From contig NZ_JH584241.1 of the NCBI RefSeq assembly GCF_000241485.1, forward strand, positions 1,394,380 to 1,432,753: DNA of 38,374 nt. Reading direction: 5' to 3'. Positions 13,005 to 38,374 of this stretch are shown here, piece after piece. Below the pieces are notes generated by a model. That model was not told where the DNA came from and searched no databases. It saw nothing but the letters and a program-made list of their open reading frames with translations. The first letter of the stretch is position 1. Each line of letters opens with the position of its first letter. The translations under genes were made by a program, and so were the position numbers. This stretch comes from Sphingomonas sp. PAMC 26605. Lineage in GTDB: Bacteria > Pseudomonadota > Alphaproteobacteria > Sphingomonadales > Sphingomonadaceae.

Positions 13005-13032
13005 ATCCGCTCCGCGCGTGTCTTCGGTTACA
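13005..13032 (-). promoter_or_regulatory. Weak SigF-type ECF promoter before DUF1223 gene
   Basis: On the minus strand TGTAACC (from 13032) is followed, after 17 bases from TGTAAC, by CGGAT. The -35 and spacing match the other copies, while the -10 differs at the third base (CGGA instead of CGAA). The start codon is about 50 bases downstream. Confidence 0.4.
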
Positions 13033-13123: not shown

Positions 13124-14431
13124 CTAAGTCCGGATATGTGCAAAGCACGTCCGCAGTTCCGAGGTGAACAGCGCCGGCTGCTCGAAGGCAGCGAAATGGC
13201 CGCCTTTCGCTACGCGGTTCCAGTAGAAGAGCTTGGGATAGGTGCGCTCACCCCAAATGCGGGGCGGCCGGTAGATCTCCCCTGGAAAGATGCTGACACC
13301 GACCGGGATATCCACGACCCGGCGCGATTCTTGGTCCCCCGAGTTCTCCGCATAAAGCCGGGCTGACGAGGCGCCGCTCCCCGTGATCCAGTAGAGCATG
13401 ATGTCGTCGAGCATCGCATCGCGCGAGATAACCGATTCCGGGTTGTGGTTGCTGTCCGACCAATCCGTGAACTTTTCGTAGATCCACATGGCCTGTCCCA
13501 CTGGAGAATCGACGAGGCCGTAGCCAAGGGTCTGCGGCCGTGTTTCCTGGATGGCCCCATAGCCGGTCATTGTCCGGAAGAACGCCTTGAGTTCGGCGAT
13601 CGCCGCCTTCTCTTCGGCGGTCGGCTCGCCTTCGAGCGGTGGCGGCGAGAGGGTCGGGAAGTTGAGGTGGATCGCCGCCAGCCCTTCAGGCTTTTGCACG
13701 CCGAGCCATGTCGTCACATGCGCGCCCCAGTCGCCGCCCTGCGCGACCCAGCGGCGATAGCCGAGCCGCTTCATCAGCGTGCTCCAGGCGGTGGCGATCT
13801 TCGGCACATCCCACCCTGTCTGTCGCGGCTTGTCCGAAAAACCGTAGCCCGGCAGCGACGGGATGACGACATGGAACGCGTCCTCGGCGCGTCCACCATG
13901 TGCCTCGGGATCGGTCAGCGGACCGATCACGTCGAGAAACTCGACGACCGAGCCCGGCCATCCGTGCGTGAGGATGATCGGCAGGGCATTCGCATGCTTC
14001 GAGCGGACATGGAGAAAGTGGATCCCGAGGCCGTCGATCGCGGTCCGGAATTGCGGGAACGCATTGAGCCTGCGCTCGAGCCGGCCCATGTCGTAGACAT
14101 CGCGCCAATAGTCGACGAGACTGCGCGCGCGGTGCAGTTGGACGCCTTGCGACCCGTCGGTCACGGTCTCCTGCTCGGGCCAGCGCGTCATCGCCAGGCG
14201 GCGCCTGAGATCCTCGATCGCGGCGGGCGCGATGGCGACGCGGAAGGGCCGCACCGCCTCCGTGGCGGGCGGCAGATCGACCCCGATCGACGGCGCGATC
14301 GCTCCGTGCGCGCCTGCCTTGACCGACGCAAGGCCGAGCGCACCGAGGCCGAGCCCCGCCTGCAGCAGCGTCCTGCGCAAAGCGAGCGGCGTGCGGTCGG
14401 CGACGTCGTCACCGGGTAGAGCCTCATCCAT
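13124..14431 (-). CDS. Exported epoxide hydrolase (EHN plus alpha/beta hydrolase)
   Basis: A 435-residue protein. Residues 15-43 form a twin-arginine-like leader (LRRTLLQAGLGLGALGLASVKAGA). The epoxide hydrolase N-terminal (EHN) domain follows: FRVAIAPAAIEDLRRRLAMTRWP, DYWRDVYDM and FPQFRTAIDGLGIHFLHVRS. The hydrolase core has oxyanion motif HGWPGS (156-161), nucleophile D234 in QGGDWGAH and catalytic H412 in KGGHFAAFEQP. Microsomal-type enzymes hydrolyse epoxides to diols. AGGAA lies five bases before the ATG. An exact GTAACC-N16-CGAA promoter lies about 55 bases upstream (14486-14511). The same strand carries a TetR gene upstream. Confidence 0.92.
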   Translation of the reverse strand: MDEALPGDDVADRTPLALRRTLLQAGLGLGALGLASVKAGAHGAIAPSIGVDLPPATEAVRPFRVAIAPAAIEDLRRRLAMTRWPEQETVTDGSQGVQLHRARSLVDYWRDVYDMGRLERRLNAFPQFRTAIDGLGIHFLHVRSKHANALPIILTHGWPGSVVEFLDVIGPLTDPEAHGGRAEDAFHVVIPSLPGYGFSDKPRQTGWDVPKIATAWSTLMKRLGYRRWVAQGGDWGAHVTTWLGVQKPEGLAAIHLNFPTLSPPPLEGEPTAEEKAAIAELKAFFRTMTGYGAIQETRPQTLGYGLVDSPVGQAMWIYEKFTDWSDSNHNPESVISRDAMLDDIMLYWITGSGASSARLYAENSGDQESRRVVDIPVGVSIFPGEIYRPPRIWGERTYPKLFYWNRVAKGGHFAAFEQPALFTSELRTCFAHIRT

Positions 14432-14485: not shown

Positions 14486-14511
14486 TTCGAACCGAGTCGC
14501 CGCTCGGTTAC
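14486..14511 (-). promoter_or_regulatory. Exact SigF-type ECF promoter GTAACC-N16-CGAA before epoxide hydrolase
   Basis: On the minus strand GTAACC (14511-14506) and CGAA (14489-14486) are separated by exactly 16 bases. The predicted transcript would start near 14479, giving a leader of about 48 bases to the ATG at 14431. The base before GTAACC is C, whereas the six 27.8-38.3 kb copies have T. Confidence 0.6.
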
Positions 14512-14586
14512 GATCCTTGGACGCCGATCGCACAAAAACCAGCGGCCGTCCGTCGCGTTGCGACGGACGGTTCGCTGCCCCCGCCG

Positions 14587-21468: not shown

Positions 21469-22092
21469 TTACCCCTGGCCTGAGCCGCCCTGCTTAACCG
21501 CTAACCCGGCAGGATTGCTCGTTGTCACGGTGCTGACCTTGTCGCTGCTCTCCAGCGGGACACGGTTGCCATTGAGACACAGCGCCATCAAAACGAAGAC
21601 CGAGATCGACAGGATATATTTGCGAGTCAAAACCTCACCGAATGTGGCCAGCATTTCGCTCAGCGTTGCGTCGGTCAGCGTCTTGGCGCCGGTCAACTCG
21701 TCGCACGCACGGCACAGCAGGATATAATCCGATCCGACGCCAGTGACGGGCCCATCCGAGGCGAAGGCGGCGATTTCGTCTTCGCTGAGCCCTACGTTAC
21801 GGCCGATCGACGAATGGATCTGCCACTCATAGGGGGCGTTGCACTGCTTGGCGACGCGCATCATGCACGTCTGCCGGTGCTTCGGGTCGATGCCCTCGGG
21901 GCCGAAGATCGCGTTGACCGTATCGATCACGCCCGCGAAGTGCGCGCCGGTTCCGGCGAACATCTTGACGACGTTGAGCGTCGTGTCGGGCTGATAGGCA
22001 CTGCCGTAATAGGCCTCGATAACCGGCCTGATGACGTCGTCGTCGGGGAGCGGCACTGACACCGCTGCCGCATAGCTTGTTGGAAAGGTCAT
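21469..22092 (-). CDS. Carboxymuconolactone decarboxylase-family (AhpD-like) protein
   Basis: About 207 residues. The centre shows the CMD/AhpD-fold pattern: RQTCMMRVAKQCNAPYEWQIHSSIGRNVGLSEDEIAAF, with the usual Y-E-W-x2-H and a G-L-S-x-x-E-I helix. It then has RACDELTGAKTLTDATLSEM and YILSISVFVLMALCLNGNRVP. The family includes decarboxylases and CxxC peroxidase reductases. No CxxC is present here, so the reaction is unknown. I prefer the ATG at 22092, which has GAGGA eight bases upstream, over the ATG at 22122, which adds ten residues. Second to last in the minus-strand operon. Confidence 0.87.
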   Translation of the reverse strand: MTFPTSYAAAVSVPLPDDDVIRPVIEAYYGSAYQPDTTLNVVKMFAGTGAHFAGVIDTVNAIFGPEGIDPKHRQTCMMRVAKQCNAPYEWQIHSSIGRNVGLSEDEIAAFASDGPVTGVGSDYILLCRACDELTGAKTLTDATLSEMLATFGEVLTRKYILSISVFVLMALCLNGNRVPLESSDKVSTVTTSNPAGLAVKQGGSGQG

Positions 22093-27497: not shown

Positions 27498-27888
27498 CCC
27501 TATCGCAGAAGCAATCCGAAGAAGCGCGAGGGGGTATCGCTCTTCGCAGAATCCTTCTGACGAAACGAGCGTGACCGGCGTGTCCAGACGGACGCGGCGC
27601 GCGGCGCGTCGCGATCATTCGCCGTGTTCGCCGACCCTTTTGTCGCGCGCTTCCGAGCCCAGCTGCCGGCGAAGCGCGGCACCGCCCCGACCTGCCGGAC
27701 AGATTGGCCTGTTGTAGCCGAGCTGACGTCCGCGAGAGCGCCCGCATGGGGCGTTGCACCGCGCATCGCGGCCATCACGATCAGCCTTTTCGTGTCGCCT
27801 CCGCTCTCACGCGACGCGGATGAAGGCGACCCGCGGGGGCCTGCGGCTACAGGTGCGAGTCTATTTTTCGCGACATCGCCGAACGATC
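27498..27888. other. Gene-free stretch
   Basis: Between the nitronate monooxygenase and the SigF-type promoter at 27889 no frame on either strand gives a recognisable or well-started protein. The open frames here are arginine- and serine-rich shadows. A loose stem around 27509-27537 could help terminate the upstream gene but has no T-run. Confidence 0.4.
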
Positions 27889-27916
27889 TGTAACCCGGGG
27901 GCTTCGTCCGTCGAAA
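27889..27916 (+). promoter_or_regulatory. SigF-type ECF promoter before YHS-TlpA genes
   Basis: TGTAACC (TGTAAC at 27889-27894) with 17 bases to CGAAA (27912-27916), equal to GTAACC-N16-CGAA. The predicted start near 27923 leaves about 39 bases of leader to the ATG at 27962, with GGGGAG in place. Confidence 0.75.
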
Positions 27917-27961
27917 CCCGCACGTGCCACCTGCGAGGGTTGGCTAAAGGGGAGATCTTGA

Positions 27962-28453
27962 ATGTTGTGCTTCGACCATCGACGGCTTGCCGCCGCCCTG
28001 CTGATCCTGAGCGCGCCGGCGAGCGGCCTGATCCCGACAATGGCACAGGCTGCGGTCCCGGGTTCGACGGCGTCGGTGAACGTCGACCAGGCTGGCGTGG
28101 CGCTCCGCGGCTTCGATCCGGTCGCCTATTTCGAAACCGGCAAGCCGACCAAGGGCGTGGATGCGATCGCGACGACGTTTGACGGCGTACGCTACCTGTT
28201 CGCGACCGAGGCGCACCGCCGGACGTTCCTCGCCGCTCCCGCCAAATACGTTCCCCAGTTCGGGGGATTCTGCGCGGTTGGAACGTCCTTCGGCGAAAAG
28301 GTCGACGCCGACCCGCAAACGGGTCGCGTCGTCGACGGCAAGCTCTACGTGAACTATAGCGCGAAGACGCAAATGATCTTCGACAAGGACGTGCCCGGGA
28401 CGATCGCGCGGGCCGAGCAGAACTGGCCGAAGGTCAAAGACAAGCCTCAGTGA
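27962..28453 (+). CDS. Exported YHS-domain protein
   Basis: A 163-residue protein with a signal peptide (LAAALLILSAPASGLIPTMAQA). The YHS-type domain follows: VALRGFDPVAYFETGKPTKG, then FDGVRYLFATEAHRRTFLAAPAKYVPQFGGFCAVG and a C-terminal LYVNYSAKTQMIFDKD. YHS domains are linked to metal or heme-related functions; a single Cys (GGFCA) is kept. The ATG has GGGGAG seven to eight bases upstream. The stop overlaps the GTG start of the TlpA-like gene (GTGA), so both come from the SigF-type promoter at 27889. Confidence 0.9.
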   Translation: MLCFDHRRLAAALLILSAPASGLIPTMAQAAVPGSTASVNVDQAGVALRGFDPVAYFETGKPTKGVDAIATTFDGVRYLFATEAHRRTFLAAPAKYVPQFGGFCAVGTSFGEKVDADPQTGRVVDGKLYVNYSAKTQMIFDKDVPGTIARAEQNWPKVKDKPQ

Positions 28454-28983
28454 GCTGCGGCTCCCCGCTGCACCGTCGGGCCGGGTGGCGCGTGGCGGCG
28501 GTGGCGATTCTCGCTTTCGCCGCCGCGCCTGGAGGTGCCGGGATCGTGGTCGGCGCGCCTGCTGCGGCAGAGCCGTTGCCGACGCTGGAGATCGACGGCG
28601 GCGGTCCGGTCAGGCTCGCGGCGTTGCGCGGGAATCCTGCCATCGTCAGCTTCTGGGCGAGCTGGTGCGTGCCGTGCCGGGCGGAACTCGCGAGCCTCGA
28701 ACGGCTCGCCGCGAGCCGGCCCGGCCGGTTGGCGGTTATCGCCGCGTCGGTCGATGACGATCGCGCGGTTGGTCGGGCCGCTTTCGGACGGGCGTATCCG
28801 CACCTCCGGCTCGCCTTCGCATCGCTTCGCGCGGTCGAGCGGTACGGCGCGCTCGGCATGCCCTATTCGGTCGTCTTCGATGCACGTGGCCGCGAAGTGC
28901 GGCGGGTCACGCGGGCTATCGACTGGAGCGCTGCCGATGGCGCCGGTATGCTCGCGCAGGCAGATCGGTCGTCGAGGCGTTGA
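28450..28983 (+). CDS. TlpA/ResA-like periplasmic thioredoxin
   Basis: A 177-residue protein starting with GTG, overlapping the YHS stop. An export signal (GWRVAAVAILAFAAAPGGAG) is followed by the thioredoxin fold. NPAIVSFWASWCVPCRAELASLERLA carries the CVPC active site, then VIAASVDDDRAVGRAAF and YGALGMPYSVVFDARG with the cis-Pro loop MPYS. The FWASWCxPCRAE signature is that of TlpA/ResA-type oxidoreductases, which reduce disulfides in the periplasm, often using electrons from CcdA. A CcdA-like protein is encoded at 33908 under the same promoter class. Confidence 0.92.
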   Translation: MSCGSPLHRRAGWRVAAVAILAFAAAPGGAGIVVGAPAAAEPLPTLEIDGGGPVRLAALRGNPAIVSFWASWCVPCRAELASLERLAASRPGRLAVIAASVDDDRAVGRAAFGRAYPHLRLAFASLRAVERYGALGMPYSVVFDARGREVRRVTRAIDWSAADGAGMLAQADRSSRR

Positions 28984-29090
28984 GGCCCGGATGGCCGCGG
29001 CTGTCCTCCGTCGCCTTCGACGCGGGATTTCATCACATCCGGCCGGACCGCCAGCGCCGCCTTCCAAGCGCGATCGTGGAACCTCGGCGC

Positions 29091-29118
29091 TGTAACCTCT
29101 GAAGCACCCCCGGCGTAT
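29091..29118 (+). promoter_or_regulatory. SigF-type ECF promoter (CGTAT variant) before CBS gene
   Basis: TGTAACC with 17 bases from TGTAAC to CGTAT (29114-29118). The -10 differs from CGAA by one base. The predicted start near 29124 excludes the in-frame ATG at 29117 and favours the ATG at 29174. Confidence 0.6.
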
Positions 29119-29173
29119 GTCCCATCAGGCCCACGCGGAAACGGGTCGGCCCTCACCAGCGAGAGTAAGTGCC

Positions 29174-29614
29174 ATGCTCGTAAGCGACGTCCTCAAGAAC
29201 AAGTCTGCGGATATTCACCAGATCATCGAGACAGCCACCCTGTCGGCAGCGGCCGGCCTGATGGCATCGTCGCGCGTCGGGGCGCTCGTCGTCGAGGGAC
29301 CGTCGGGAGCGCTGAGCGGCCTCGTCTCCGAGCGCGAGATCACCGCCGCGCTGGTGCGCTGGGGCGGCGAGGCGCACAGGCATACCGTGCGCGAGGTGAT
29401 GGTGCGCCAGCCGCTGGTCGCGCGTCCCGAAGACACGCTTGCCGACGTCACCGCGGTGATGACGCACCACCGCGCGCGCCACTTGCCGGTGATGCGCGAA
29501 GGGGTGCTGGTCGGCATCCTCAGCATCGGCGACGTGCTTGCCTTGCGGCTCGACGAGAAGATCCACGAGAACCTCGTTCTGCAGGACATCGCCCGCTGGC
29601 GTCACGCCGCCTAG
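29174..29614 (+). CDS. CBS-domain pair protein
   Basis: A 146-residue cytoplasmic protein made of two CBS motifs. The first is IIETATLSAAAGLMASSRVGALVVEGPSGALSGLVSEREITAAL. The second is VREVMVRQPLVARPEDTLADVTAVMTHHRARHLPVMREGVLVGILSIGDVLALRLD. Such stand-alone pairs bind adenine nucleotides (AMP, ATP, NAD) and act as energy sensors. The ATG at 29174 is chosen because the SigF-type promoter places the transcript start after the upstream ATG. A GAGAG element lies about eight bases before it. Confidence 0.9.
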   Translation: MLVSDVLKNKSADIHQIIETATLSAAAGLMASSRVGALVVEGPSGALSGLVSEREITAALVRWGGEAHRHTVREVMVRQPLVARPEDTLADVTAVMTHHRARHLPVMREGVLVGILSIGDVLALRLDEKIHENLVLQDIARWRHAA

Positions 29615-29666
29615 CGCATGGCGTGACCGGGCCGGTCGAACAAAGACCGTCATCGCGGTTGCACGG

Positions 29667-29694
29667 TGTAACGCGCGCACCTGGGCGAACGAAC
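29667..29694 (+). promoter_or_regulatory. SigF-type ECF promoter, leaderless arrangement
   Basis: TGTAACG with 17 bases from TGTAAC to CGAAC (29690-29694). A start site six to eight bases after the -10 falls at about 29700-29703, on the ATG of the ferritin-like gene (29703). No Shine-Dalgarno sequence exists there. Leaderless translation is likely. Confidence 0.65.
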
Positions 29695-29702
29695 GGGTCA
29701 TC

Positions 29703-30407
29703 ATGGATCATCGAGACGCCCCGATACCGAGCTTAGGCGCCGCGCCGCCGTCGCGCCGGTGCTTTACGACCGCCGTCGTCGCGCCCGTCGAACCGATCCG
29801 CGGCAGCTTGTCCGATCGCGCGGCGACGGCGCTGGCGGTGTTGCTTCCGATCCTCGGGTGCGGGGAAGAGGCCGCCGGGCTCGCCTTCAGCGACCTGGCC
29901 GATCGCGAGGACCAGGCCGCGGCGACCGCACTGCGGTGCGTCGCGGCGGAGGAACGCGTCCATGACGGGTTGATCCAGGCGCTCGCGGCGGGATTGCCCG
30001 CGCCGCCCGACCAGCGCCGAGCGCGCGCCTTGTCACGGCGGTTTCACCTCGAACTCGGCCGTGGCGACGCCGCGGTCCGCCTCGCGCGGATCGCTGCGCT
30101 CGATTCGGCGGTCTGTCTGCTCCTGTCGCGCTTGCTTCGGCCGGGAACGCCGCTTTCGGCCGACGCCGCGATTGCGCCGATCCTGCGCCGGATCGCGCGC
30201 GACGAAGCGCGTCACGTCCGCATCACGCGGTCGCTCGCCGTTTCACGGATGCGCGAGGCGAGCCTCAAGACGGCCGGGATCGCAGTCCGCGAACGCTTGG
30301 TTGCGTTGCTGAGCGAGGCGGGCGATGCGTTCGATACCCTGTCGTTCGATCCGCGCTGGCTTGTCACCGACGTTGCCCGCCTTCCGGATGGGCTGTACCG
30401 CAGGTGA
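29703..30407 (+). CDS. Ferritin-like (ExxH diiron-type) protein
   Basis: A 234-residue mostly helical protein. Helices contain GCGEEAAGLAFSDLADREDQ and CVAAEERVHDGLIQAL (ExxH), then IAALDSAVCLLLSRLL and LRRIARDEARHVRITRSLA (ExxH in DEARHV). Two ExxH-type motifs plus earlier Glu residues fit the diiron four-helix bundle of ferritin-like or rubrerythrin-like proteins. The reaction is unknown; oxidase, oxygenase or iron storage are all possible. It is the first gene of a four-gene operon with KAS III-like and ABC transporter genes. Its stop overlaps the GTG of the next gene. The start appears leaderless. Confidence 0.78.
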   Translation: MDHRDAPIPSLGAAPPSRRCFTTAVVAPVEPIRGSLSDRAATALAVLLPILGCGEEAAGLAFSDLADREDQAAATALRCVAAEERVHDGLIQALAAGLPAPPDQRRARALSRRFHLELGRGDAAVRLARIAALDSAVCLLLSRLLRPGTPLSADAAIAPILRRIARDEARHVRITRSLAVSRMREASLKTAGIAVRERLVALLSEAGDAFDTLSFDPRWLVTDVARLPDGLYRR

Positions 30408-31480
30408 GCGAAGGCCTGGCCCGAGCGTGGCGATCGCACGGCGAACTGGCGCTGCTCGGCACGGGCGCGGCATTGCCGGGCTCGCCCGTGACGACCGAGA
30501 CACTGCTCGGCCGGGCAGGGCTCGATGGTCGCCGGCATGCCCTGGGGCTGTCGGTCGCCGAGCGGCTGGGCGTTCGCACGCGGCATCTCGGCCGCTCTTG
30601 GTCAACGCGGATCGATACATTGGGAGACGGCGCCGGCAATCCCGCGCTCGCGGCGCAGGCGGTCGAGGCCGCGCTGCGCGACGCTGGCTTGCAGGTGGCT
30701 GATCTCGGCTATCTGATCGCGCACACCGCGACACCGGCACAGCCATTGCCGTCCAACGTCGCGTTCGTCGCCGATCGACTGGGGTTTGCCGGGCCTCATA
30801 TCGAGCTGCGTCAGGCGTGTACGGGTTTTGCCAACGCGCTGATGATCGCCTTCGGTCTGCTGGCCGCGCCCGGCGCCCGCCCCGTTGCGATCGTCGGTTC
30901 GGAAACGGGGTCGGTCTTTCTCGACATCGCGGCGCTTGCGGACGAGTCCGGGCAGATCGTCAATCTGGTGCAGATGGGCGACGGTGCCGGCGCGGTGATC
31001 CTCGGCCCGGCGGGAAGCGGTTCCGACCGGCTTCGCGCCGCCTGGTACGGCGCGCTGGGGCTTGGCCGTGGTCCGGGCTTGCAGATGCGCGAAGGCGGAT
31101 CGGACCGGCCGGGGCCGGGCGATGCGGGGCCGCTGTCGTTCGAACACGATTTCGCCGCAGTGCTGCGCGGCGGCGCGGAATTGTTCGACGCGGGCGTCGG
31201 CGCCGCCGCGGCGCGCGGGTTCGACCTCGCCGCGGCCGACTGGATCATACCGCATCAGGCGAGCGGCCGGATCGGCCAGCAGTTGGCGGGGCATTTCGAC
31301 CTGCCCGAAGACCGGTTCTTCGTGAACGCCGATCGCATCGGCAACACGGGCTCCGCGGCGATCTGGATCGCGCTCGCCGAGTTGCGCGCTCGTCGTCTCG
31401 CCGCCGGCACCGTGACGCTCGCCCTCGGCGCCGAGGCCACCAAATACATGTTCGGAGGTTTCGTCCATGAAGCCGGCTGA
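30404..31480 (+). CDS. 3-oxoacyl-ACP synthase III-like (KAS III/FabH-fold) enzyme
   Basis: A 358-residue thiolase-fold protein. The Cys nucleophile is in IELRQACTGFANAL, the catalytic His in WIIPHQASGRI, and the Asn in NADRIGNTGSAAIWIAL, so the Cys-His-Asn triad is complete. MGDGAGAVILG is also present. It is longer than FabH (about 317) and carries a distinctive N-terminus (LALLGTGAALPGSPVTTETLL). KAS III enzymes condense acyl-CoA with malonyl-ACP; variants transfer acyl groups in natural-product pathways. No ACP, ketoreductase or acyltransferase gene is nearby, so the partner must be elsewhere. Start GTG overlaps the previous stop; the end overlaps the ABC ATPase gene by 14 bases. Confidence 0.9.
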   Translation: MSEGLARAWRSHGELALLGTGAALPGSPVTTETLLGRAGLDGRRHALGLSVAERLGVRTRHLGRSWSTRIDTLGDGAGNPALAAQAVEAALRDAGLQVADLGYLIAHTATPAQPLPSNVAFVADRLGFAGPHIELRQACTGFANALMIAFGLLAAPGARPVAIVGSETGSVFLDIAALADESGQIVNLVQMGDGAGAVILGPAGSGSDRLRAAWYGALGLGRGPGLQMREGGSDRPGPGDAGPLSFEHDFAAVLRGGAELFDAGVGAAAARGFDLAAADWIIPHQASGRIGQQLAGHFDLPEDRFFVNADRIGNTGSAAIWIALAELRARRLAAGTVTLALGAEATKYMFGGFVHEAG

Positions 31481-32204
31481 TGCGTCGGACCGGATCGTCG
31501 TCAGCGGTCTCGGCAAGCGCTATGGCGCCACCTGGGCCGTGCACGATGTCGGCTTCACGCTGACGCCTGGTGCGATGCTCGGCCTCGTCGGGGCGAATGG
31601 CGGGGGCAAAACGACGACGCTCAGGATGCTCGCGGGGCTGGTCCGGCCGGACGCCGGCGCGGGCCGTGTCCTCGGCCATGACATCGCGCGACCCGATGCC
31701 GCGCTGCGTCGGAAGATCGGCTATATGAGCCAGAAACTGTCGCTCTATCCGGAATTGAGCGTCGCCGAAAATCTCGCCTTCCGCGCCGCCGTCCTGCGCT
31801 TGGCGGATCGCCGGGGCGCGATCGCGCAGGCGGCCGAACGGTACGGGCTTGGCGGGGTGCTGACGACGCGCTTCGACCGTCTGTCCGGCGGCTGGGCCCG
31901 GCGGGCGCAATTTGCCGCGGTCACGCTCGGCGACCCGCCGCTGCTGCTGCTCGACGAACCGACCGCGGGGCTCGACGTCGCGACGCGCCGCGCGATCTGG
32001 GGATGGCTAAGCGAGTTCGCGGCGGCAGGCCATATCGTCGTCGTCAGCACGCACGACCTGGTCGAGGCCGCGCGCTGCCCGACCATGCTGCATTATGCGG
32101 CCGGGCGTGCCGAGGGGCCGATGACCCCCGCCGACTTCGTCACAGCCGCGGGCGGCGGCGACCTCGAGGATGCGGTGCACCGTCTGGCCGGGGCAGGGCG
32201 CTGA
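31467..32204 (+). CDS. ABC transporter ATP-binding protein
   Basis: A 245-residue ATPase: Walker A GANGGGKTT (residues 43-51), Q-loop YMSQKLSLYPELSV, signature LSGGWARR, Walker B LLLLDEPTAGLD and H-loop VVVSTHD. The LSGGWARR signature has Trp where Gln or Glu is usual. The type is that of ABC-2 exporters, which move drugs, lipids or polysaccharides. GGAGG, eight bases before the ATG, lies within the end of the KAS III-like gene. The stop overlaps the permease start (TGATG), so the two are translationally coupled. Confidence 0.95.
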   Translation: MKPADASDRIVVSGLGKRYGATWAVHDVGFTLTPGAMLGLVGANGGGKTTTLRMLAGLVRPDAGAGRVLGHDIARPDAALRRKIGYMSQKLSLYPELSVAENLAFRAAVLRLADRRGAIAQAAERYGLGGVLTTRFDRLSGGWARRAQFAAVTLGDPPLLLLDEPTAGLDVATRRAIWGWLSEFAAAGHIVVVSTHDLVEAARCPTMLHYAAGRAEGPMTPADFVTAAGGGDLEDAVHRLAGAGR

Positions 32205-33277
32205 TGGGGATGATCGCGATCTCGCTCGCCATCGCGCGGGTGGAACTGCTCCGGCTTTTGCGCTCGCCGACGAGCTTCACCCTCTTGCTGCTGGTGCCGA
32301 CGCTCCAGATCCTTCTTTTCGGTTATGCGATCAGGCCATCGGCGGCCGAGGTCGCGGTGGCGATTGCTGGCCCCGCCACCGAACGCGGGGATGTCGCGCG
32401 ACTGGTCGGTGCCGCCGGGCTCCGCGTCGTCGCGAGCGATCTTGCGCCGGGCAAGGCGGCGGCGATGGTCCGCGCGGGCCGGGCGGTGGTCGGGATCGAG
32501 CTGCCGACGACGCCCTTCGAACCGGTCCGAAGCGTGATCGACGCCACCGATCCCAACCTCTCGGGCGCGGCGGAGGCCAAGGTCGAGGCGATCTATTGGA
32601 ATGGTCTCGCCGAGCGCAACAAGGTGGCGGACATTGGCCCCCGCCTGCGGATCGAGCGTCTGTTCAATCCGTCCGCCCGCGCGGACTGGGCCTTCCTGCC
32701 GCCGCTGTCGGGCACGATCATGATGATCAGCATGCTGATGCTCGGCGCGCTCAGCCTGGCGCGCGAGCGCGAGCTTGGAACATGGGAAGCGCTCGCGGCG
32801 CTTCCCGTCGGACGATTGCCGCTGCTGCTCGGCAAGGTCGCGCCGCTCGCCGTCATCGGGTCGCTGCAGGGGCTGATCGTCCTGGTCGCGAGCGTCTGGC
32901 TGTTCGCATTGCCGGTCCACGGAAATCTGCCCGCCTTCCTGGCGCTCTTTCCGCTCTTCGCCGTCGCGCATCTGGTGCTCGGGCAGGCGCTCGCGGCGCG
33001 CGCGCGGACCCAGTTGGCGGCGCTTCAGGGCGCGGTCGCCTTCTACTTGCCGGCGATGCTGCTCTCGGGATTCCTGTATCCGTTCGCGACGCTGCCGCGC
33101 TGGGCGCAGCGGCTGGGCGAAATCTTCCCGCTGACGCATTTTGCCCGCGCCGCGCGCGACGCCACGCTGCGCGGACAGGATGGGTGGACGATCCTCGCCC
33201 ATGGCGGGCCCATTGCCGTCTTCCTGCTGGCGGTCGTCGCGCTTTCCCTGTTGCAGCACCGCGCCCGGCTCGATTGA
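32204..33277 (+). CDS. ABC-2 type permease
   Basis: A 357-residue membrane protein. One N-terminal transmembrane helix (SFTLLLLVPTLQILLFGYAI) is followed by an extracytoplasmic domain (about residues 45-165). Five more helices follow: LPPLSGTIMMISMLMLGALSLARERELGTWE, LAVIGSLQGLIVLVASVWLFAL, FLALFPLFAVAHLVLGQAL, LQGAVAFYLPAMLLSGFLYPF and PIAVFLLAVVALSLLQ. The RERELGTWEAL loop is the typical coupling segment (ERExGT). This is the YhhJ/ABC2_membrane_3 type. Only one permease is encoded, so a homodimer with the ATPase at 31467 is expected. The cargo is unknown; a product of the KAS III-like enzyme is one possibility. Confidence 0.93.
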   Translation: MGMIAISLAIARVELLRLLRSPTSFTLLLLVPTLQILLFGYAIRPSAAEVAVAIAGPATERGDVARLVGAAGLRVVASDLAPGKAAAMVRAGRAVVGIELPTTPFEPVRSVIDATDPNLSGAAEAKVEAIYWNGLAERNKVADIGPRLRIERLFNPSARADWAFLPPLSGTIMMISMLMLGALSLARERELGTWEALAALPVGRLPLLLGKVAPLAVIGSLQGLIVLVASVWLFALPVHGNLPAFLALFPLFAVAHLVLGQALAARARTQLAALQGAVAFYLPAMLLSGFLYPFATLPRWAQRLGEIFPLTHFARAARDATLRGQDGWTILAHGGPIAVFLLAVVALSLLQHRARLD

Positions 33278-33283
33278 GCCGAT

Positions 33284-33311
33284 TGTAACGGGCAGCGCGG
33301 CCGAAACGAAC
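33284..33311 (+). promoter_or_regulatory. SigF-type ECF promoter before periplasmic thioredoxin
   Basis: TGTAACG with 17 bases to CGAAC (33307-33311). It begins seven bases after the permease stop, so the thioredoxin gene can be transcribed separately. The predicted start near 33318 leaves a leader of about 39 bases containing GGGAG. Confidence 0.65.
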
Positions 33312-33356
33312 CTACCAGGCGACGGCGGCTTGGCCGTCTTCCCGGGAGACCTCACC

Positions 33357-33746
33357 ATGACCTTTCGTCTGACCACGGCCGCGATCGCGGCGACGATCCT
33401 TGCGGTCGCCCCAGCCCATGCGGCCGAGTTCCGTAAGTTCGATCGGGCCGCCTTCGCCGCGGCGCAGGCCCAGGGCCGCCCCGTCATCATCGACGTGCAT
33501 GCCTGGTGGTGCCCCGTGTGCTTCTCGCAAAACCACACGATCCGGCAGACCGTCGCGTCGCCGGCCTACGACAAGATGGTCATCTTCCGGATCGACTACG
33601 ACACCCAGAAGCCGGTGTGGCAAAGCTTCGGTGTGCGCAAACAGGCGACCCTGATCGCGTTCCACGGCCGGCGGGAGGTCGGGCGGCTCGCCTATATGAC
33701 CAACAAGGACGCCATCGACGCGCTCCTGGCTTCGGCGGTCCGCTGA
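33357..33746 (+). CDS. Periplasmic thioredoxin-family protein (DsbD-gamma-like)
   Basis: A 129-residue protein with a Sec signal peptide (LTTAAIAATILAVAPAHAA, cleavage near residue 22). A compact thioredoxin domain follows: FAAAQAQGRPVIIDVHAWWCPVCFSQNHTI with a CPVC active site, then VIFRIDYDTQKPVWQSFGVRKQATLIAFHGRREVGRL. The size and AWWCPVC motif resemble the C-terminal (gamma) domain of DsbD, here as a separate exported protein. Together with the CcdA-like membrane protein at 33908 it could form a split DsbD system bringing electrons to periplasmic thiols. GGGAG lies eight to nine bases before the ATG. Confidence 0.92.
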   Translation: MTFRLTTAAIAATILAVAPAHAAEFRKFDRAAFAAAQAQGRPVIIDVHAWWCPVCFSQNHTIRQTVASPAYDKMVIFRIDYDTQKPVWQSFGVRKQATLIAFHGRREVGRLAYMTNKDAIDALLASAVR

Positions 33747-33766
33747 CGCGACCGACGGCGCGCTGC

Positions 33767-33794
33767 TGTAACCCGCCGCGCTTCCCTTGCGAAA
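33767..33794 (+). promoter_or_regulatory. SigF-type ECF promoter before CcdA-like gene
   Basis: TGTAACC with 17 bases to CGAAA (33790-33794), identical in its key bases to the copy at 27889. The predicted start near 33801 gives a leader of about 107 bases to the ATG at 33908, longer than in the other copies. No gene is supported in that leader. Confidence 0.72.
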
Positions 33795-33907
33795 CCCTGG
33801 TCGAGGTCCGCGTCCGCGCCGGCCGATCCTCACGACGCTGGAACCGATCCGATGTGCCTGCAACGCCGAATCCCTGCTAAAACCCGCCATGCCGCGGACA
33901 CGCCACG

Positions 33908-34633
33908 ATGAGCAGCGCGCTGAACCCGCTGCTCGCTTATGCGGCGGGCGCGCTCACCATCCTGTCGCCCTGCGTGCTCCCGCTGGTCCCGATCATTCTC
34001 GGGAGCGCCGCGCAGAAGCATCGCTTCGGGCCGCTCGCGCTGGCGGCGGGCCTGGTGGTGTCGTTCACCGTGACCGGCTTCGTGATCGCGACCGCCGGCG
34101 AGTCGCTCGGGCTCGACACCGATGTCGTGCGCCTCGCCGGCGCGGTCATCCTCGCGGTGATCGGCCTGGCCCTCGTCGTTCCGCAGTTCCAGCGCGTCAC
34201 GGAACGTCTCGCCACCCCGCTGGCGAACTGGGCCGGCGCGCGTCAGGCCGGACTCGAACGGTTCGGTCTCGCCGGGCAGGCCGCGATCGGCATGCTCCTC
34301 GGTCTGGTGTGGAGCCCGTGCGTCGGCCCGACCCTGGGCGCAGCGACGGTCCTCGCAGCGCAGGGGCAAGACCTTGGCGAGGTCGCGTTCGTGATGGCGG
34401 CGTTCGGTCTCGGGATCGCGAGCGTCCTGCTGATCCTCGCGCTCGCGGCGCGTTCGGTGATCGTTCGCTGGCGCGGTCGTCTGATGAGCGCGGGAAGCGG
34501 GGGCAAGAAGGCGCTCGGCGCGCTGCTGATCGCGGTCGGTCTGCTGATCTTCACCGGCACCGATCATTTGATCGAAGGCGTGGTCCTCGGGGCGTCGCCG
34601 GAATGGCTCACGAACCTGACGACGGCGATCTGA
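33908..34633 (+). CDS. CcdA/DsbD-beta-like membrane electron carrier
   Basis: A 241-residue protein with six hydrophobic segments. The two conserved cysteines are in LSPCVLPLVP (first helix) and WSPCVGPTLG (fourth helix), the CP motif pair of the DsbD transmembrane family. It is predicted to move reducing equivalents from cytoplasmic thioredoxin across the membrane. Likely acceptors encoded nearby are the thioredoxin at 33357 and the TlpA-like protein at 28450. The ATG has only a weak GGA upstream. It ends 45 bases before the NADH dehydrogenase gene, so both may be transcribed from 33767. Confidence 0.93.
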   Translation: MSSALNPLLAYAAGALTILSPCVLPLVPIILGSAAQKHRFGPLALAAGLVVSFTVTGFVIATAGESLGLDTDVVRLAGAVILAVIGLALVVPQFQRVTERLATPLANWAGARQAGLERFGLAGQAAIGMLLGLVWSPCVGPTLGAATVLAAQGQDLGEVAFVMAAFGLGIASVLLILALAARSVIVRWRGRLMSAGSGGKKALGALLIAVGLLIFTGTDHLIEGVVLGASPEWLTNLTTAI

Positions 34634-34678
34634 AGGCGTCCGGCCAGAGGCGTGGAATTCATCATTCGGAGGCGCGAC

Positions 34679-36112
34679 GTGAAACGCTCAGCGAGCTTGC
34701 ATCATCCCCGCGCCGGCGCGGGTCGTGCGCCCCACATCGTCATTGTCGGCGCCGGCTTCGGCGGACTCGCCGCAGCGAAGGAACTGGCGCGCTACGATCT
34801 CGACGTGACCCTCGTCGACCGCCAAAACCACCATCTCTTTCAACCCCTGCTCTACCAGGTGGCGACGGCGGGCCTGTCCCCGGCGGATGTCGCCGCTCCG
34901 ATTCGATCGATCGTTAAGAAGCAGAAGCGAACGCGGGTCCTGCTCGATCAGGTGGACGGCATCGACCATCAGGCGAAGACCGTAAGCCTTTCGAGCGGTG
35001 CCACGCTGCACTACGATTCGCTGATCCTCGCCACCGGCGCCACCCACAGCTATTTCGGGAACGAGGGCTGGGCCGAGCACGCCCCCGGCATCAAGACGAT
35101 CGACGACGCGCTGCATGTCCGCAGGCAGATCCTGCTCGCGCTCGAACACGCCGAGACGAACCGTCAGCAGAATGTCGAAGAGCGTGCCGAGTTCCTGACG
35201 TTCCTCATCGTCGGCGGTGGTCCGACCGGGGTGGAGATGGCCGGCGCGGTCGCCGAACTGACACGACACGCCGCCGATATGGACTTTCACTACATCACCC
35301 GGCGCTGCGTGCGGATCATCCTTATCGAGGCCGGGCAGCGATTGCTCGCGACCTTTCCCGAACGGCTGAGCGAAGCGGCACGGCGCGCGCTGGTGAAATT
35401 GGGGGTCGAGGTCAGGCTCGGCAGCCGCGTGACCAGCATCGACGCGGCGGGGGCGGTCGTCGATGACGAACTGATCCGCTCGGCCACGATCATCTGGGCC
35501 GCCGGGGTCAAGGCATCACCGGCTGCGCAATGGCTGGATCTCGCGCCGGACCGCGCCGGTCGCGTCATCGTCGATGCGAGCCTGCAGGTCGCGGATCGCG
35601 CGGGCGTCTATGCGATCGGCGATACGGCCGCTGCAACGAGCGCCACGGGTCAGCCGGTTCCCGGGATCGCACCCGCCGCGAAGCAGCAGGGGGTGTACGT
35701 TGCGCATCACATCGCCGCCAAGCTCGGCCACCGTCGCGCCCCCACGTCCTTTCGGTATCGCCATTTCGGCAGCCTTGCGACGATCGGGCGAAAGCGTGCG
35801 GTGGTCGATCTGGGATGGGTGCGTTTCTCCGGACTTGCGGCGTGGATCCTGTGGTCGACCGCACATATCTATTTCCTGGCGGGCTTCCGCAACCGCTTCG
35901 TCGTGGGTGCGAACTGGCTCTGGAACTATATGACCTTCGAGCGCAGCGCTCGCCTGATTACCGGCCTTGGTACGGATATCGAAGGCGTCGTGTCGGCGGC
36001 ACGCGTGGCGCGAGGTCCCGACATTCGAGACGCGCCTGCCAGCCTCACGGCGGACCCTCGGGCGCCCGGGGAGTGTGGCGGGTTATCCGCGCGCGTGGCG
36101 CCACGTCCTTAA
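34679..36112 (+). CDS. ndh: Type II NADH:quinone oxidoreductase
   Basis: A 477-residue FAD protein. HIVIVGAGFGGLAAAKEL is the FAD-binding Rossmann motif, followed by DRQNHHLFQPLLYQVATAGLSPADVAAPIR, a hallmark of NDH-2. FLIVGGGPTGVEMAGAVAEL forms the NADH site, GVYAIGDTA the second FAD contact and PAAKQQGVYVA the quinone-side motif. The C-terminal FVVGANWLWNYMTFERSARLI is the membrane-surface helix typical of the family. It oxidises NADH without pumping protons. I choose GTG 34679 because GGAGG lies six bases upstream, over GTG 34652. The C-terminal 35 residues are unusually Pro- and Arg-rich. The next gene is convergent. Confidence 0.94.
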   Translation: MKRSASLHHPRAGAGRAPHIVIVGAGFGGLAAAKELARYDLDVTLVDRQNHHLFQPLLYQVATAGLSPADVAAPIRSIVKKQKRTRVLLDQVDGIDHQAKTVSLSSGATLHYDSLILATGATHSYFGNEGWAEHAPGIKTIDDALHVRRQILLALEHAETNRQQNVEERAEFLTFLIVGGGPTGVEMAGAVAELTRHAADMDFHYITRRCVRIILIEAGQRLLATFPERLSEAARRALVKLGVEVRLGSRVTSIDAAGAVVDDELIRSATIIWAAGVKASPAAQWLDLAPDRAGRVIVDASLQVADRAGVYAIGDTAAATSATGQPVPGIAPAAKQQGVYVAHHIAAKLGHRRAPTSFRYRHFGSLATIGRKRAVVDLGWVRFSGLAAWILWSTAHIYFLAGFRNRFVVGANWLWNYMTFERSARLITGLGTDIEGVVSAARVARGPDIRDAPASLTADPRAPGECGGLSARVAPRP

Positions 36113-36193
36113 GTCCTGCAATGTCGCGTATCGTCTGGGGCTATGCCCGGCTGCGGCGTCGCCACGCTGCTCGCCGGCGCGATCCTGCCACTG

Positions 36194-36221
36194 GCGGCGC
36201 GCCGGGGTTCGCGCGCGCCGC
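36194..36221. terminator. GC-rich hairpin between convergent genes
   Basis: GCGGCGCGC (36194-36202) and GCGCGCCGC (36213-36221) form a perfect nine-bp stem with a ten-base loop, between the ends of ndh and the GH130-like gene. There is no T-run on either strand, so it is only a candidate bidirectional terminator. Confidence 0.4.
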
Positions 36222-36227
36222 TATCGC

Positions 36228-37529
36228 TTACTCCATAGCGGCGAGCACATCCGATACGTCGGCCGTCGCGATCGTCGCGAAGTCGTCGGCGACGCCGTAA
36301 GGCAGGTACAGCGTCCGTCCGCGCACCAGGCCGCCGCAACTGTAGATCACGTTGGGAACATAGCCGTTGCGATTGTCCTGCGCAGGCTCGATCAGAGGAC
36401 GGGGTGTCCGCGCCAGTACTTTGCTCGGATCGCGCTTGTCGAGCAGGCAGGCGCCGATGCAATAGTTTCGGACCACGCCGACACCGTGGGTCAGCACGAG
36501 CCAGCCCTCGTCGATCTCGATCGGCGACCCGCAATTTCCCATCTGGACGAACTCCCACGGGTAGCGGGGGCACAGGATCTTGGTACCGCCGTTCCAGGTC
36601 TCGAGATCGTCCGACTGCAGGAACCAGATGTTCTCATTGTCGTGCCGCGACAGCATCGCGTACCGGCCGGCGATCCTCCTCGGAAACAGCGCCATGCCCT
36701 TTCCACCCGCCGCGTCGCCGCGCAGCGGGCGCATGTCGAAATCCCGGAACGTCTCGGTGTCGAGCAGCTCCGAGCGCGCCGCTGCGCCACTGAAGGCGGT
36801 ATAGGTGCCGTAGAAGCGCTCGCTTCCATCGTCCTCGACAAAGTGGACCAGGCGAAGGTCCTCGATGCCCTGCCGCTGGCTGGGCGTCATTGGGAACAGG
36901 ACGGTTTCCGACAAGGTATAGCTGCCGCCGCACAGCAGCTTGATGCCGAGCGGGCCGTCCCCTTCTTCGCGCTGGATGATCGGAGGTACGGCTGTCCGGC
37001 TGGGCACGTCGACCGACAGGTCCCCGCCGGGGCCGATCAGTCCGGTCCTGAACGTCACCGAGGAGACGTGCCCCTCGCCGATCGCGCGCAGCGCCATGAG
37101 GAAGCGGACCGACCCTTCGGGAACCTCGGACTGATCGGGATGGATTACCATGCTGGGATTGAACAAGGCGGCTGCCTCGAACGAATATTCGTTGCAGAAA
37201 TAGGCACCGATCAGCAGCGCCTGGTCCGGCCGCACCGCCGCCGGGTTGATGCAGAAGCCGCCGCACAGATCGAGCACCTCGTGGAAGCGCCGCATCAGCA
37301 TCGCATCGACGTCGCGATGGCGCTCGTCGAGCGATTCGGTGATCTTCTCGCGCTCCTTCGCACCCTCTTCGAAACTCAGGGCCATGACACGGTCGATGAT
37401 CCGCTGCGATCGCGGCATGCTCGCCACCGCGAAGGAATCGGGGTCGCCAGGCATGAACGGTCGCACCACGGTCCGCGATGGGTCGGGGCGCAACACGATG
37501 GGGAGGTGGTTCAGGAAGCTTGCTGACAT
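36228..37529 (-). CDS. GH130-family glycosidase / beta-mannoside phosphorylase-like protein
   Basis: A 433-residue protein of five-bladed propeller type. Motifs: AALFNPSMVIHPDQSEVPEGSVRFLMALRAIGEGHVSSVTFRTGLI, IEDLRLVHFVEDDGSERFYGTYTAFSG, MALFPRRIAGRYAMLSRHDNENIWFLQSDDLETW, GNCGSPIEIDEGWLVLTHGVG and a C-terminal YVPNVIYSCGGLVRGRTLYLPYGVADDFATIATADV. This order is typical of GH130 proteins, which phosphorolyse or hydrolyse beta-mannosides. There is no signal peptide, so it is cytoplasmic. GGAG lies about eight bases before the ATG; the frame open further upstream is not believable. An exact GTAACC-N16-CGAA promoter lies 26-51 bases upstream. Confidence 0.9.
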   Translation of the reverse strand: MSASFLNHLPIVLRPDPSRTVVRPFMPGDPDSFAVASMPRSQRIIDRVMALSFEEGAKEREKITESLDERHRDVDAMLMRRFHEVLDLCGGFCINPAAVRPDQALLIGAYFCNEYSFEAAALFNPSMVIHPDQSEVPEGSVRFLMALRAIGEGHVSSVTFRTGLIGPGGDLSVDVPSRTAVPPIIQREEGDGPLGIKLLCGGSYTLSETVLFPMTPSQRQGIEDLRLVHFVEDDGSERFYGTYTAFSGAAARSELLDTETFRDFDMRPLRGDAAGGKGMALFPRRIAGRYAMLSRHDNENIWFLQSDDLETWNGGTKILCPRYPWEFVQMGNCGSPIEIDEGWLVLTHGVGVVRNYCIGACLLDKRDPSKVLARTPRPLIEPAQDNRNGYVPNVIYSCGGLVRGRTLYLPYGVADDFATIATADVSDVLAAME

Positions 37530-37554
37530 GGGTTCGATCTCCGTTGCGGCGGGG

Positions 37555-37580
37555 TTCGGTCGGCAAGGAGGTAAGGTTAC
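37555..37580 (-). promoter_or_regulatory. Exact SigF-type ECF promoter before GH130 gene
   Basis: On the minus strand GTAACC (37580-37575) and CGAA (37558-37555) are separated by 16 bases. The predicted start near 37548 gives a short leader of about 19 bases carrying GGAG. A is found before GTAACC, where the 27.8-38.3 kb copies on genes 27962-33908 and 38252 have T. Confidence 0.62.
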
Positions 37581-37693
37581 TCGGCCGGTGGGAAGGCTTT
37601 GAGCAAGCCGCGCTTGGTCCAGCCAAGAACCGCGACCGCCGCAAGCACAGCGGGAAGCATCGCGCCCGTTTCGTTGACAGCGTACCGGTCCAC
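37577..37693 (-). CDS. Possible 38-residue membrane peptide or gene remnant
   Basis: A minus-strand frame from GTG 37693 reads VDRYAVNETGAMLPAVLAAV, then AVLGWTKRGLLKAFPPAE and a stop. It has one hydrophobic segment followed by basic residues. The TAA stop lies inside the GTAACC of the promoter at 37555-37580. There is no ribosome binding site before the GTG, so it may be the tail of a lost gene. The rest of 37694-37906 shows no gene. Confidence 0.25.
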   Translation of the reverse strand: MDRYAVNETGAMLPAVLAAVAVLGWTKRGLLKAFPPAE

Positions 37694-37906
37694 AGACGCG
37701 GCGTATATGGGCTCGGAGCGATGTGTGCCGGGAGTGCCGCGCCGCCGACGGGTTGGTCCACCGATCGGCAATGGCGGCGCGCTGCGCTGGCAGGCGTTCT
37801 CGCATTTCTCGGTATGCCTGGTGCTCTACGGTGTCGTCAAAGCCTCGGGTCCGGACCCCGCCGACGGTTCGCGTCGCCGTGCATTTGCGACTGGCCAGAA
37901 CGCACA

Positions 37907-37941
37907 CCACCGTCCGGCAGCCTGACGCCGCCGGACGGTGG
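37907..37941 (-). terminator. Terminator-like hairpin downstream of the bufferin-like gene
   Basis: CCACCGTCCGGC (37907-37918) and GCCGGACGGTGG (37930-37941) form a perfect 12-bp stem with an 11-base loop, 42 bases beyond the stop of the minus-strand small-protein gene. The following minus-strand bases (TGTGCGTTCT) are only moderately T-rich. Confidence 0.6.
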
Positions 37942-37954
37942 GGTTAAGAGGGTG

Positions 37955-37975
37955 GTCCGACCGGTTCGGTCGGAC
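37955..37975 (-). terminator. Second hairpin directly after the bufferin-like gene
   Basis: GTCCGACC (37955-37962) and GGTCGGAC (37968-37975) form a perfect eight-bp stem with a five-base loop, starting seven bases after the stop codon. Together with the hairpin at 37907-37941 it may end or stabilise the transcript of the small gene. Confidence 0.45.
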
Positions 37976-37982
37976 GCTGGGC

Positions 37983-38252
37983 TCAGCCCTTGGGGGTGAG
38001 GCTGCCGCCCATCTTGGCGCAAGCCTTGGTCGAGAGATCCTTGAAGCCCTGGCCCTTGCAGTCGTTCTGGCCCTTGCAGTCATGCGTGCCCGACTTGCAG
38101 TCCGACTGACCCTTGCACGAATTGACGCCGTAGCAGGGCTGCGCCTTGGAGGTCTTGGCAGCGGCTTGCGCGGGGGCGGTCGTCGCGAGGCCCGTCAGAG
38201 CGAGCATGGCAGCGGCGGAAGCGATGGCGGCGCCGGTCTTGAAGGTCTTCAT
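37983..38252 (-). CDS. BufA2-like bufferin (six-Cys exported peptide)
   Basis: An 89-residue protein with a Sec signal peptide (MKTFKTGAAIASAAAMLALT... ending APAQA, cleavage near residue 30). The mature part of about 59 residues has six Cys (40, 46, 52, 59, 65, 78) in a repeated C-K-G/S-x pattern: PCYGVNSCKGQSDCKSGTHD, then CKGQNDCKGQGFKDLSTKAC and a short tail. From memory this closely resembles BufA2-type bufferins, ribosomally made periplasmic metallophores whose Cys are modified by MNIO (DUF692) enzymes and which sequester copper. No DUF692 or DUF2063-like partner gene follows; only hairpins and a glycosidase gene do. AGGAG precedes the ATG by eight bases. A SigF-type promoter lies at 38298-38325. 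Confidence 0.85.
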   Translation of the reverse strand: MKTFKTGAAIASAAAMLALTGLATTAPAQAAAKTSKAQPCYGVNSCKGQSDCKSGTHDCKGQNDCKGQGFKDLSTKACAKMGGSLTPKG

Positions 38253-38297
38253 GGGGATACTCCTGAATAGATGACGTTTGCCAGGTGGCGCTGGGAT

Positions 38298-38325
38298 TTT
38301 CGCCGCGAGAAGGCCGCCGGTTACA
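38298..38325 (-). promoter_or_regulatory. SigF-type ECF promoter before bufferin-like gene
   Basis: On the minus strand TGTAACC (TGTAAC at 38325-38320) with 17 bases to CGAAA (38302-38298). The predicted start near 38291 leaves about 39 bases of leader to the ATG at 38252. Confidence 0.78.
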
Positions 38326-38357
38326 GACGAGATAAAATTCCGATGTCGTAGCCACAG

Positions 38358-38363
38358 TGTAAC
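38358..38363 (+). promoter_or_regulatory. Possible divergent SigF-type -35 element at the window edge
   Basis: TGTAACC on the plus strand. The matching CGAA would start at 38381, beyond the end of the window. It faces away from the bufferin-like promoter, 32 bases from it, so a second regulon gene probably begins just outside. Confidence 0.4.
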
Positions 38364-38374
38364 CGCGGCGCGCA

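Follow-up and report, generated by a model that had tools for sequence, protein, structure and literature searches.

The closest described systems to the one treated here belong to group ECF16 of the extracytoplasmic function (ECF) sigma factors. The prototype, SigF-NrsF of Caulobacter crescentus, has the promoter motif GTAACC-N16-CGAA (PMC3511200), and the accessible text of a later study gives [TC]GTAAC-N17-CGAA for the whole group (PMC8315932). In the parts of the Caulobacter papers that were available, four SigF promoters are named, of which 5' RACE mapped two and primer extension one, the fourth being predicted (PMC3511200, PMC8224329); a sigF::Tn5 mutant is copper-sensitive (PMC8224329), and two conserved cysteines of NrsF, C131 and C181, were replaced by serine (PMC3511200). 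Brucella BcrS changes 36 genes, which is a precedent for a large ECF16 regulon, and both BcrS-AbcS and the SigF-NrsF system of Azospira are described, in the available part of the source, as hypochlorite responses with a methionine-rich scavenger peptide as their hallmark (PMC8315932). As far as the accessible sections go, ECF16 systems are already known to have this promoter and an NrsF partner and to include bufferin operons and methionine sulfoxide reductase genes (PMC3511200, PMC8315932, PMC6180224, PMC8224329), and a 2025 bufferin survey, again as partly available, reports sigma and NrsF genes in Buf1 clusters and not in Buf2 clusters (PMC12452194). Here, we describe a cluster of matching motifs in Sphingomonas sp. 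PAMC 26605, centred on a stretch of 38,374 nucleotides (hereafter the window; C1:1394380-1432753, in a genome of 4.8 Mb) and analysed together with its surroundings (C1:1391000-1447200, 56 kb). The sites stand at defined positions with a fixed spacing, they are clustered, sigma and anti-sigma genes lie among them, and they are conserved at many orthologues. Judged from the DNA, they are probably the promoters of an ECF16-type SigF/NrsF regulon that is packed into one locus and has new targets.

An earlier note on this DNA had listed TGTAAC-N17 sites and an exact pair of GTAACC-N16-CGAA copies, and had likened them to the Caulobacter SigF motif; each site was recovered in its place and orientation, and the motif matches the published one as given in the available part of PMC3511200. 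Exact TGTAAC-N17-CGWA occurs in the window at 27889, 29091, 29667, 33284 and 33767 on the plus strand and at 38325 on the minus strand, and tolerance of one mismatch adds 13032, 14512, 21801 and 37581, all on the minus strand (10 matches vs. 1.04 expected). Exact GTAACC-N16-CGAA occurs five times (14486-14511, 37555-37580 and 38299-38324 on minus; 27890-27915 and 33768-33793 on plus) vs. 0.04 expected, and none of 100 shuffled sequences attained five. The sites in the window are the following.

13006..13032, minus strand: weak ECF16-type site, TGTAAC-N17-CGGA
14486..14512, minus strand: putative ECF16-type promoter, CGTAACC-N16-CGAA, 54 bp from the start of the epoxide hydrolase gene
21775..21801, minus strand: motif match from the scan, within an open reading frame (ORF), probably due to chance
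27889..27915, plus strand: putative ECF16-type promoter, TGTAACC-N16-CGAA, 46 bp from the start of the YHS gene
29091..29117, plus strand: putative ECF16-type promoter, TGTAACC-N16-CGTA, 56 bp from the start of the CBS gene
29667..29693, plus strand: putative ECF16-type promoter of the diiron operon, TGTAAC-N17-CGAA, 9 bp from the called start, which is uncertain
33284..33310, plus strand: putative ECF16-type promoter, TGTAAC-N17-CGAA, 46 bp from the start of the thioredoxin-like gene
33767..33793, plus strand: putative ECF16-type promoter, TGTAACC-N16-CGAA, 114 bp from the start of the CcdA gene
37555..37581, minus strand: putative ECF16-type promoter, AGTAACC-N16-CGAA, 25 bp from the start of the GH130 gene
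38299..38325, minus strand: putative ECF16-type promoter, TGTAACC-N16-CGAA, 46 bp from the start of the BufA2 gene

The constant spacing on which the earlier note had remarked is borne out across the 56-kb region: when the gap in GTAACC-Nk-CGWA was varied from k=8 to k=25, 15 matches had k=16, a single one had k=23, and every other value gave none. With the slightly looser GTAAC-N17-CGWA, 18 sites lie between C1:1391693 and 1446892 (~55 kb). Taking the gene models at face value, 16 of the 18 have a same-strand start codon 9-114 bp downstream; the site at C1:1437370 lies 123 bp upstream of a thioredoxin gene, provided that a later start codon is chosen, and the remaining one is the match within an ORF at window position 21775. 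The earlier note had placed the cluster in the right part of the window, but it actually extends from ~2.7 kb to the left of the window to ~14 kb to its right. As for the weaker site that the earlier note had placed before the DUF1223 gene, it is present and recurs in the relative G022, but it proves little because its spacer is likewise conserved there.

Over the genome as a whole, GTAAC-N17-CGAA has 32 matches (12 for the reversed pattern as a control), 14 of which fall in C1:1391693-1440219, i.e., 48.5 kb or 1% of the genome (binomial P ~5e-20). The same picture was obtained with GTAACC-N16-CGWA (23 matches, reversed control 13; 15 in the 55 kb of C1:1391693-1446892, P ~4e-24) and with the strict TGTAACC-N16-CGAA (10 matches, reversed control 0; seven in the cluster). 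A genome-wide regulon was considered and rejected: promoter-like placement, defined as an intergenic match with a start within 150 bp by gene models at face value, was found for 12 of 14 matches in the cluster vs. 4 of 16 outside it (16 of the 18 outside matches had a locus). Beyond the cluster, the motif is near background frequency, and the genome-wide enrichment that the earlier note had expected was not seen. Since the sites are confined to the cluster, the motif is a property of the locus rather than of the whole genome, and lack of genome-wide enrichment, which the note had taken as refuting, is not a fitting test for a regulon confined to one locus. Most matches elsewhere indeed look like background, and the one within an ORF may well be fortuitous, which is what chance matching in GC-rich DNA would produce; as an account of the whole cluster, however, chance is negligible in view of the shuffled sequences, the spacing, the clustering and the reversed patterns, even if any single site may have arisen in this way.

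The earlier note had proposed looking for the motif ahead of an ECF16-like sigma gene that is paired with a DUF1109 anti-sigma gene, and such a pair lies just to the left of the window (1.4-2.6 kb). The ECF sigma gene sigF1 (C1:1391800-1392336) encodes sigma-70 regions 2 and 4 (PF04542 and PF08281, both above cut-off) and has an exact site 81 bp upstream; the next gene, nrsF1, overlaps the end of sigF1. Matches to PF06532 (NrsF/DUF1109) number three in the genome, at C1:1392353, C1:1438603 and C3:8604, with scores of 125.4 bits for nrsF1 and 200 bits for nrsF2 (cut-off 26.8). The second of these genes, nrsF2 (C1:1438493-1439223, ~5.7 kb to the right of the window), stands alone; it is preceded by a site of its own at 57 bp and adjoins no sigma gene, an arrangement shared by its orthologues in L049 (genome G022), L061 and L068. 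Cysteines are found at positions 130 and 180 of NrsF1 and 132 and 182 of NrsF2 in an alignment of these two proteins with each other, and these positions are close to C131 and C181 of the Caulobacter protein.

In this genome and in L049, L061 and L068, the site of nrsF2 lies 57-58 bp from the start codon and begins with C instead of T, as do 27 of the 219 sites found across the compared loci. Among other nrsF genes without an adjoining sigma gene, the more distant one in L053 has a site beginning with T, and those in L083 and L127 have no site. The initial C may perhaps tune the strength of the NrsF2 brake.

The motif tracks NrsF across the genus. NrsF is present in 7 of 41 related genomes and in 67 of 201 genus genomes, 105 of which have a motif match; the mean number of motif copies is 3.21 in genomes with NrsF (n=67) vs. 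0.43 in those without (n=134; P 1.6e-19), whereas the reversed pattern gives 0.67 vs. 0.59 in the same genomes. We also collected the surroundings of sigF1 relatives from named records, 80 loci in all. These contain 189 sites with the right spacing vs. 0-13 at each of 13 other spacings, at least one right-spacing site occurs in 68 of the 80 loci, and a same-strand start lies within 250 bp of 160 of the 189 sites vs. 16 of 49 wrong-spacing matches. Among 147 distinct extended sites, columns outside the boxes carry at most 0.5 bit, the boxes themselves being fixed by the search.

For individual genes, conservation was scored in 92 loci, with orthologues defined by at least 40% identity and at least 55% coverage and a site counted if it was direct or reached via the called operon. 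At these loci, the site is kept at a high proportion of orthologues of BufA2 (30/30), thioredoxin (15/15, direct), CcdA (12/14) and nrsF2 (6/7), as well as of the DUF1223 genes (window copy 8/11, plus one wrong-spacing match; right copy 6/8). Intermediate counts were obtained for MsrA (4/6), MsrB (3/5), the diiron protein (4/6), the HExxH protein (6/11) and nrsF1 (18/33), followed by BufC (5/13), the ABC ATPase (3/9) and the permease (3/10). The same per-gene count at the wrong spacing gave one for DUF1223, one for nrsF2 and zero for the rest.

These comparisons also bear on another origin of the motif, as the operator of a different regulator. A gene that is AraC-type by appearance (a label given without a Pfam run) lies directly upstream of sigF1 in this genome and in L049, L059, L061, L062 and L067, and its product would be a candidate. 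The motif, however, consists of two short boxes at one fixed spacing, is strand-matched to the gene that follows and equals a mapped sigma promoter; it follows the presence of NrsF and occurs in most of the sigF-selected loci, whereas AraC-type relatives (at least 40% identity) appear only eight times in the 92 loci. An operator is thus very improbable.

Several observations weigh against the SigF/NrsF regulon as we read it. Strict orthology of the anti-sigma factors to Caulobacter NrsF was not found with the NCBIfam equivalog NF042994 (cut-off 300; 54.4 bits for NrsF1 and 116.9 bits for NrsF2), and we therefore call the system ECF16-type rather than orthologous to Caulobacter SigF-NrsF. An exact site was found at only 41/83 sigF1, 22/48 DoxX, 4/10 KAS III and 3/6 NDH-2 orthologues, and counts are lower still for BufB (5/29 and 5/26), CBS (1/4), GST (0/9) and the YedY-like and YedZ-like genes (0/2 each), as they are for the other BufC (2/11), the second thioredoxin (1/3) and the AraC-type gene (0/8); in some of the low counts, the operon chain was broken by gaps between called genes. 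YHS, redoxin and GH130 have no orthologue in the 92-locus set, where their sites are thus without comparison. Because the loci were chosen by their sigF or diiron gene, the 30 of 30 for BufA2 holds near such genes and not for BufA2 generally; because L062, L063, L064 and L151 contain near-identical DNA, the counts are not fully independent; and because the relatives' sites were found by means of the motif itself, the identity of the boxes is no independent evidence.

A further point on that side is the contig C3, where a sigma gene 40% identical to SigF1 adjoins its own NrsF gene. The C3 sigma could serve the same sites, either alone or jointly with SigF1 if the systems cross-talk and share anti-sigma factors, and a GH130 paralogue with the same motif lies ~8 kb from it. 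We consider this reading unlikely, though the least easily dismissed, since the sites cluster around sigF1, nrsF1 and nrsF2 and not around the C3 pair, and since sigF1 is itself preceded by a site in this genome and in L049, L059, L061, L062, L067 and L068. In the C3 region (locus L051, ~9-18 kb), which holds this second ECF16-like pair, the motif stands 65 bp upstream of the GH130 paralogue; nearby are genes that look like those for enzymes of sugar-phosphate oxidation, and a CGTA-type site in the opposing orientation.

Under the preferred assignment to SigF1, the candidate targets in the window, apart from the diiron cassette described later, are the following.

12205..12954, minus strand: DUF1223-type protein, a possible member with a weak site, named by similarity to the DUF1223 copy to the right of the window
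13124..14431, minus strand: epoxide hydrolase (PF06441), with a site at its sole orthologue in the set as well
27962..28453, plus strand: YHS-domain protein (NF041384, 130.7 bits, cut-off 70)
28492..28983, plus strand: redoxin-family thiol protein (PF08534, longer frame scanned), probably on the same transcript as YHS (38 bp gap)
29174..29614, plus strand: CBS-domain protein (PF00571, longer frame scanned), with the same place and site in G095 (L151)
33357..33746, plus strand: thioredoxin-like protein with an apparent signal peptide (PF00085, longer frame scanned)
33908..34633, plus strand: CcdA/DsbD-type membrane thiol carrier (PF02683)
34652..36112, plus strand: NDH-2-like flavoprotein (PF07992, PF22366), probably on the same transcript as CcdA
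36228..37529, minus strand: GH130-family gene (PF04041), whose 58%-identical C3 paralogue also has a site
37983..38252, minus strand: BufA2 family bufferin precursor (NF050166)

Outside the window, sites precede sigF1-nrsF1, a second BufA2 gene, another thioredoxin-like gene with the HExxH protein, a CN-hydrolase gene, nrsF2, BufB/BufC, MsrA, MsrB and a DUF1223 gene, and an additional site ~22 kb beyond lies upstream of a gene of cytochrome-b type and of one whose match to the MsrP model stays below cut-off. The HExxH-motif protein (C1:1435882-1436856, to the right of the window) has no Pfam or NCBIfam match, and in several SigF loci it is again encoded beside genes for thioredoxin, CcdA and DUF1223 proteins.

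The two BufA2 copies of this genome score 100.1 and 97.5 bits against NF050166 (cut-off 60), all 30 BufA2 relatives (28 of them distinct) match the model with E values of at most 0.001, and the BufB copies to the right of the window score 373.8 and 331.3 bits against NF050167 (equivalog cut-off 310). In L049, L059, L061, L062, L067 and L068, sigF1 and nrsF1 are followed by bufA2, which is on the opposite strand, and then by a gene for a 92-93-aa precursor with bufB, bufC and DoxX; one additional gene precedes bufA2 in L059 and L067, a CcdA gene instead of the AraC-type gene precedes sigF1 in L068, and the 92-aa gene of L049 is DUF2282 (Buf1-type), below the BufA2 cut-off. In the genome studied here, ~39 kb, essentially the window, lies between bufA2 and bufB, flanked by bufA2 copies at both ends (window 37983-38252 and C1:1393130-1393408) that form an 81%-identical direct repeat, and the DNA between them is without counterpart at this place in the compared relatives. 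This suggests an insertion or rearrangement by recombination.

Copying of site-bearing DNA might have spread the sites themselves, leaving only some of them functional, and the repeated bufA2 copies, each with its site, would fit such a history, as would a block of ~20 kb that is near-identical in three records. The targets are unrelated, however, and a comparison of 24 orthologous promoter pairs gives 41% identity in the spacers vs. 98% in the boxes (which were ascertained by the search); we regard copying as an improbable source of the pattern. The block in question is a SigF cluster that is 99-100% identical in L062, L063 and L064, drawn from a one-genome-per-species collection; a 4.7-kb part of it is shared with G095 (L151). 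Recent transfer is possible, and so is contamination, given that two of the three records come from metagenome bins and that G095 contributes a contig of only 5.7 kb. A plasmid origin found no support at the DNA level, where the L062 block and window positions 27700-38374 are each covered to no more than 1% by any plasmid record; plasmid matches to the diiron protein amount to one distant sequence, and SigF1 relatives occur on 406 plasmid records, 403 of them below 60% identity.

Between the CBS and thioredoxin-like genes lies a run of four genes.

29703..30407, plus strand: diiron protein with an ADO-like predicted fold, start codon uncertain
30404..31480, plus strand: KAS III-like condensing enzyme with the Cys-His-Asn triad kept (PF08541, PF08545)
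31467..32204, plus strand: ABC transporter ATPase (PF00005)
32204..33277, plus strand: ABC-2 type permease (PF01061, PF12698, longer frame scanned)

The residues E55/E56, E84, H87, D134, E168 and H171 of the diiron protein are invariant, and its predicted structure has the ferritin-like fold expected of an aldehyde-deformylating oxygenase (ADO); the Cys-His-Asn triad of KAS III is intact in 10 of 10 sequences. The diiron gene is present in 7 of 201 genus genomes, all seven with NrsF, and sites lie upstream of it in all six other genomes, four directly and two via an in-line run of genes. Membership of an ADO family by sequence was tried and dropped, as Pfam returned no such family for 44 members at E 0.01. 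The four-gene operon appears to be a new, conserved member of the regulon that is found only in NrsF genomes (7/7), and the cassette probably makes and exports a small molecule. Among the papers listed by a literature search on the combination of ADO, ABC transporter and ketoacyl, which covered few subscription papers, none was relevant. We propose, tentatively though as a real possibility, that sphingomonad ECF16-type sigma factors command an undescribed stress-induced cassette in which an ADO-like diiron enzyme and KAS III make a fatty-acid-derived molecule for ABC export, co-induced with BufA2 and periplasmic thiol and methionine repair within a one-locus regulon under two anti-sigma brakes. 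Now that regulation of the cassette can be predicted, a product made and exported under copper or oxidant stress is directly testable.

From these features, we infer the assignment of the sigma factor to the sites, the operon extents, the inducer and every downstream function as follows. Two anti-sigma factors, NrsF1 and the stand-alone NrsF2, would keep the sigma factor bound at the membrane until copper, other metals or oxidants act on the two conserved cysteines and release it, as Caulobacter and Brucella work suggests. Freed SigF1 would then transcribe ~17 units within ~55 kb. The products would include the BufA2 bufferins, the BufB/BufC pair, MsrA and MsrB, the YHS protein and GH130, thioredoxin-like proteins and, as a possible means of their re-reduction, a CcdA carrier, and the diiron, KAS III and ABC exporter proteins with their probable small-molecule product.

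A literature search that covered few subscription papers found no study of such a regulon in sphingomonads, and one that paired bufferins with SigF brought up nothing relevant among the papers listed. Like Caulobacter SigF-NrsF, the present locus has the promoter sequence, the sigma-NrsF pair, an MsrP-type reductase target and bufferin-type operons with MNIO (DUF692), DUF2063 and DoxX partners; unlike it, there are 18 copies of the motif in ~55 kb and a second NrsF that stands alone, together with BufA2, MsrA/MsrB, thioredoxin-CcdA and the diiron-KAS III-ABC cassette. With Brucella BcrS-AbcS and Azospira SigF-NrsF, it shares an ECF16 sigma factor, an NrsF-family anti-sigma factor, the promoter and methionine sulfoxide reductase targets, whereas in the present case bufferins, thiol carriers and the diiron cassette are the targets seen, brought together in one locus. 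BufA2 precursors, BufB maturases and DUF2063 and DoxX partners are as in the surveyed bufferin gene clusters (PMC12452194), but here BufA2 (Buf2) genes adjoin sigF1-nrsF1, with an ECF16 site in 30 of the 30 compared. New with respect to these sources are therefore the packing of 18 sites into 55 kb, BufA2 as a target, a stand-alone NrsF2 with its own site, thioredoxin-CcdA and the diiron-KAS III-ABC cassette. The candidate SigF set would thus be much larger than the four promoters reported for Caulobacter and gathered around its regulator in one locus, and it would tie BufA2 bufferins to an ECF16-type sigma factor.

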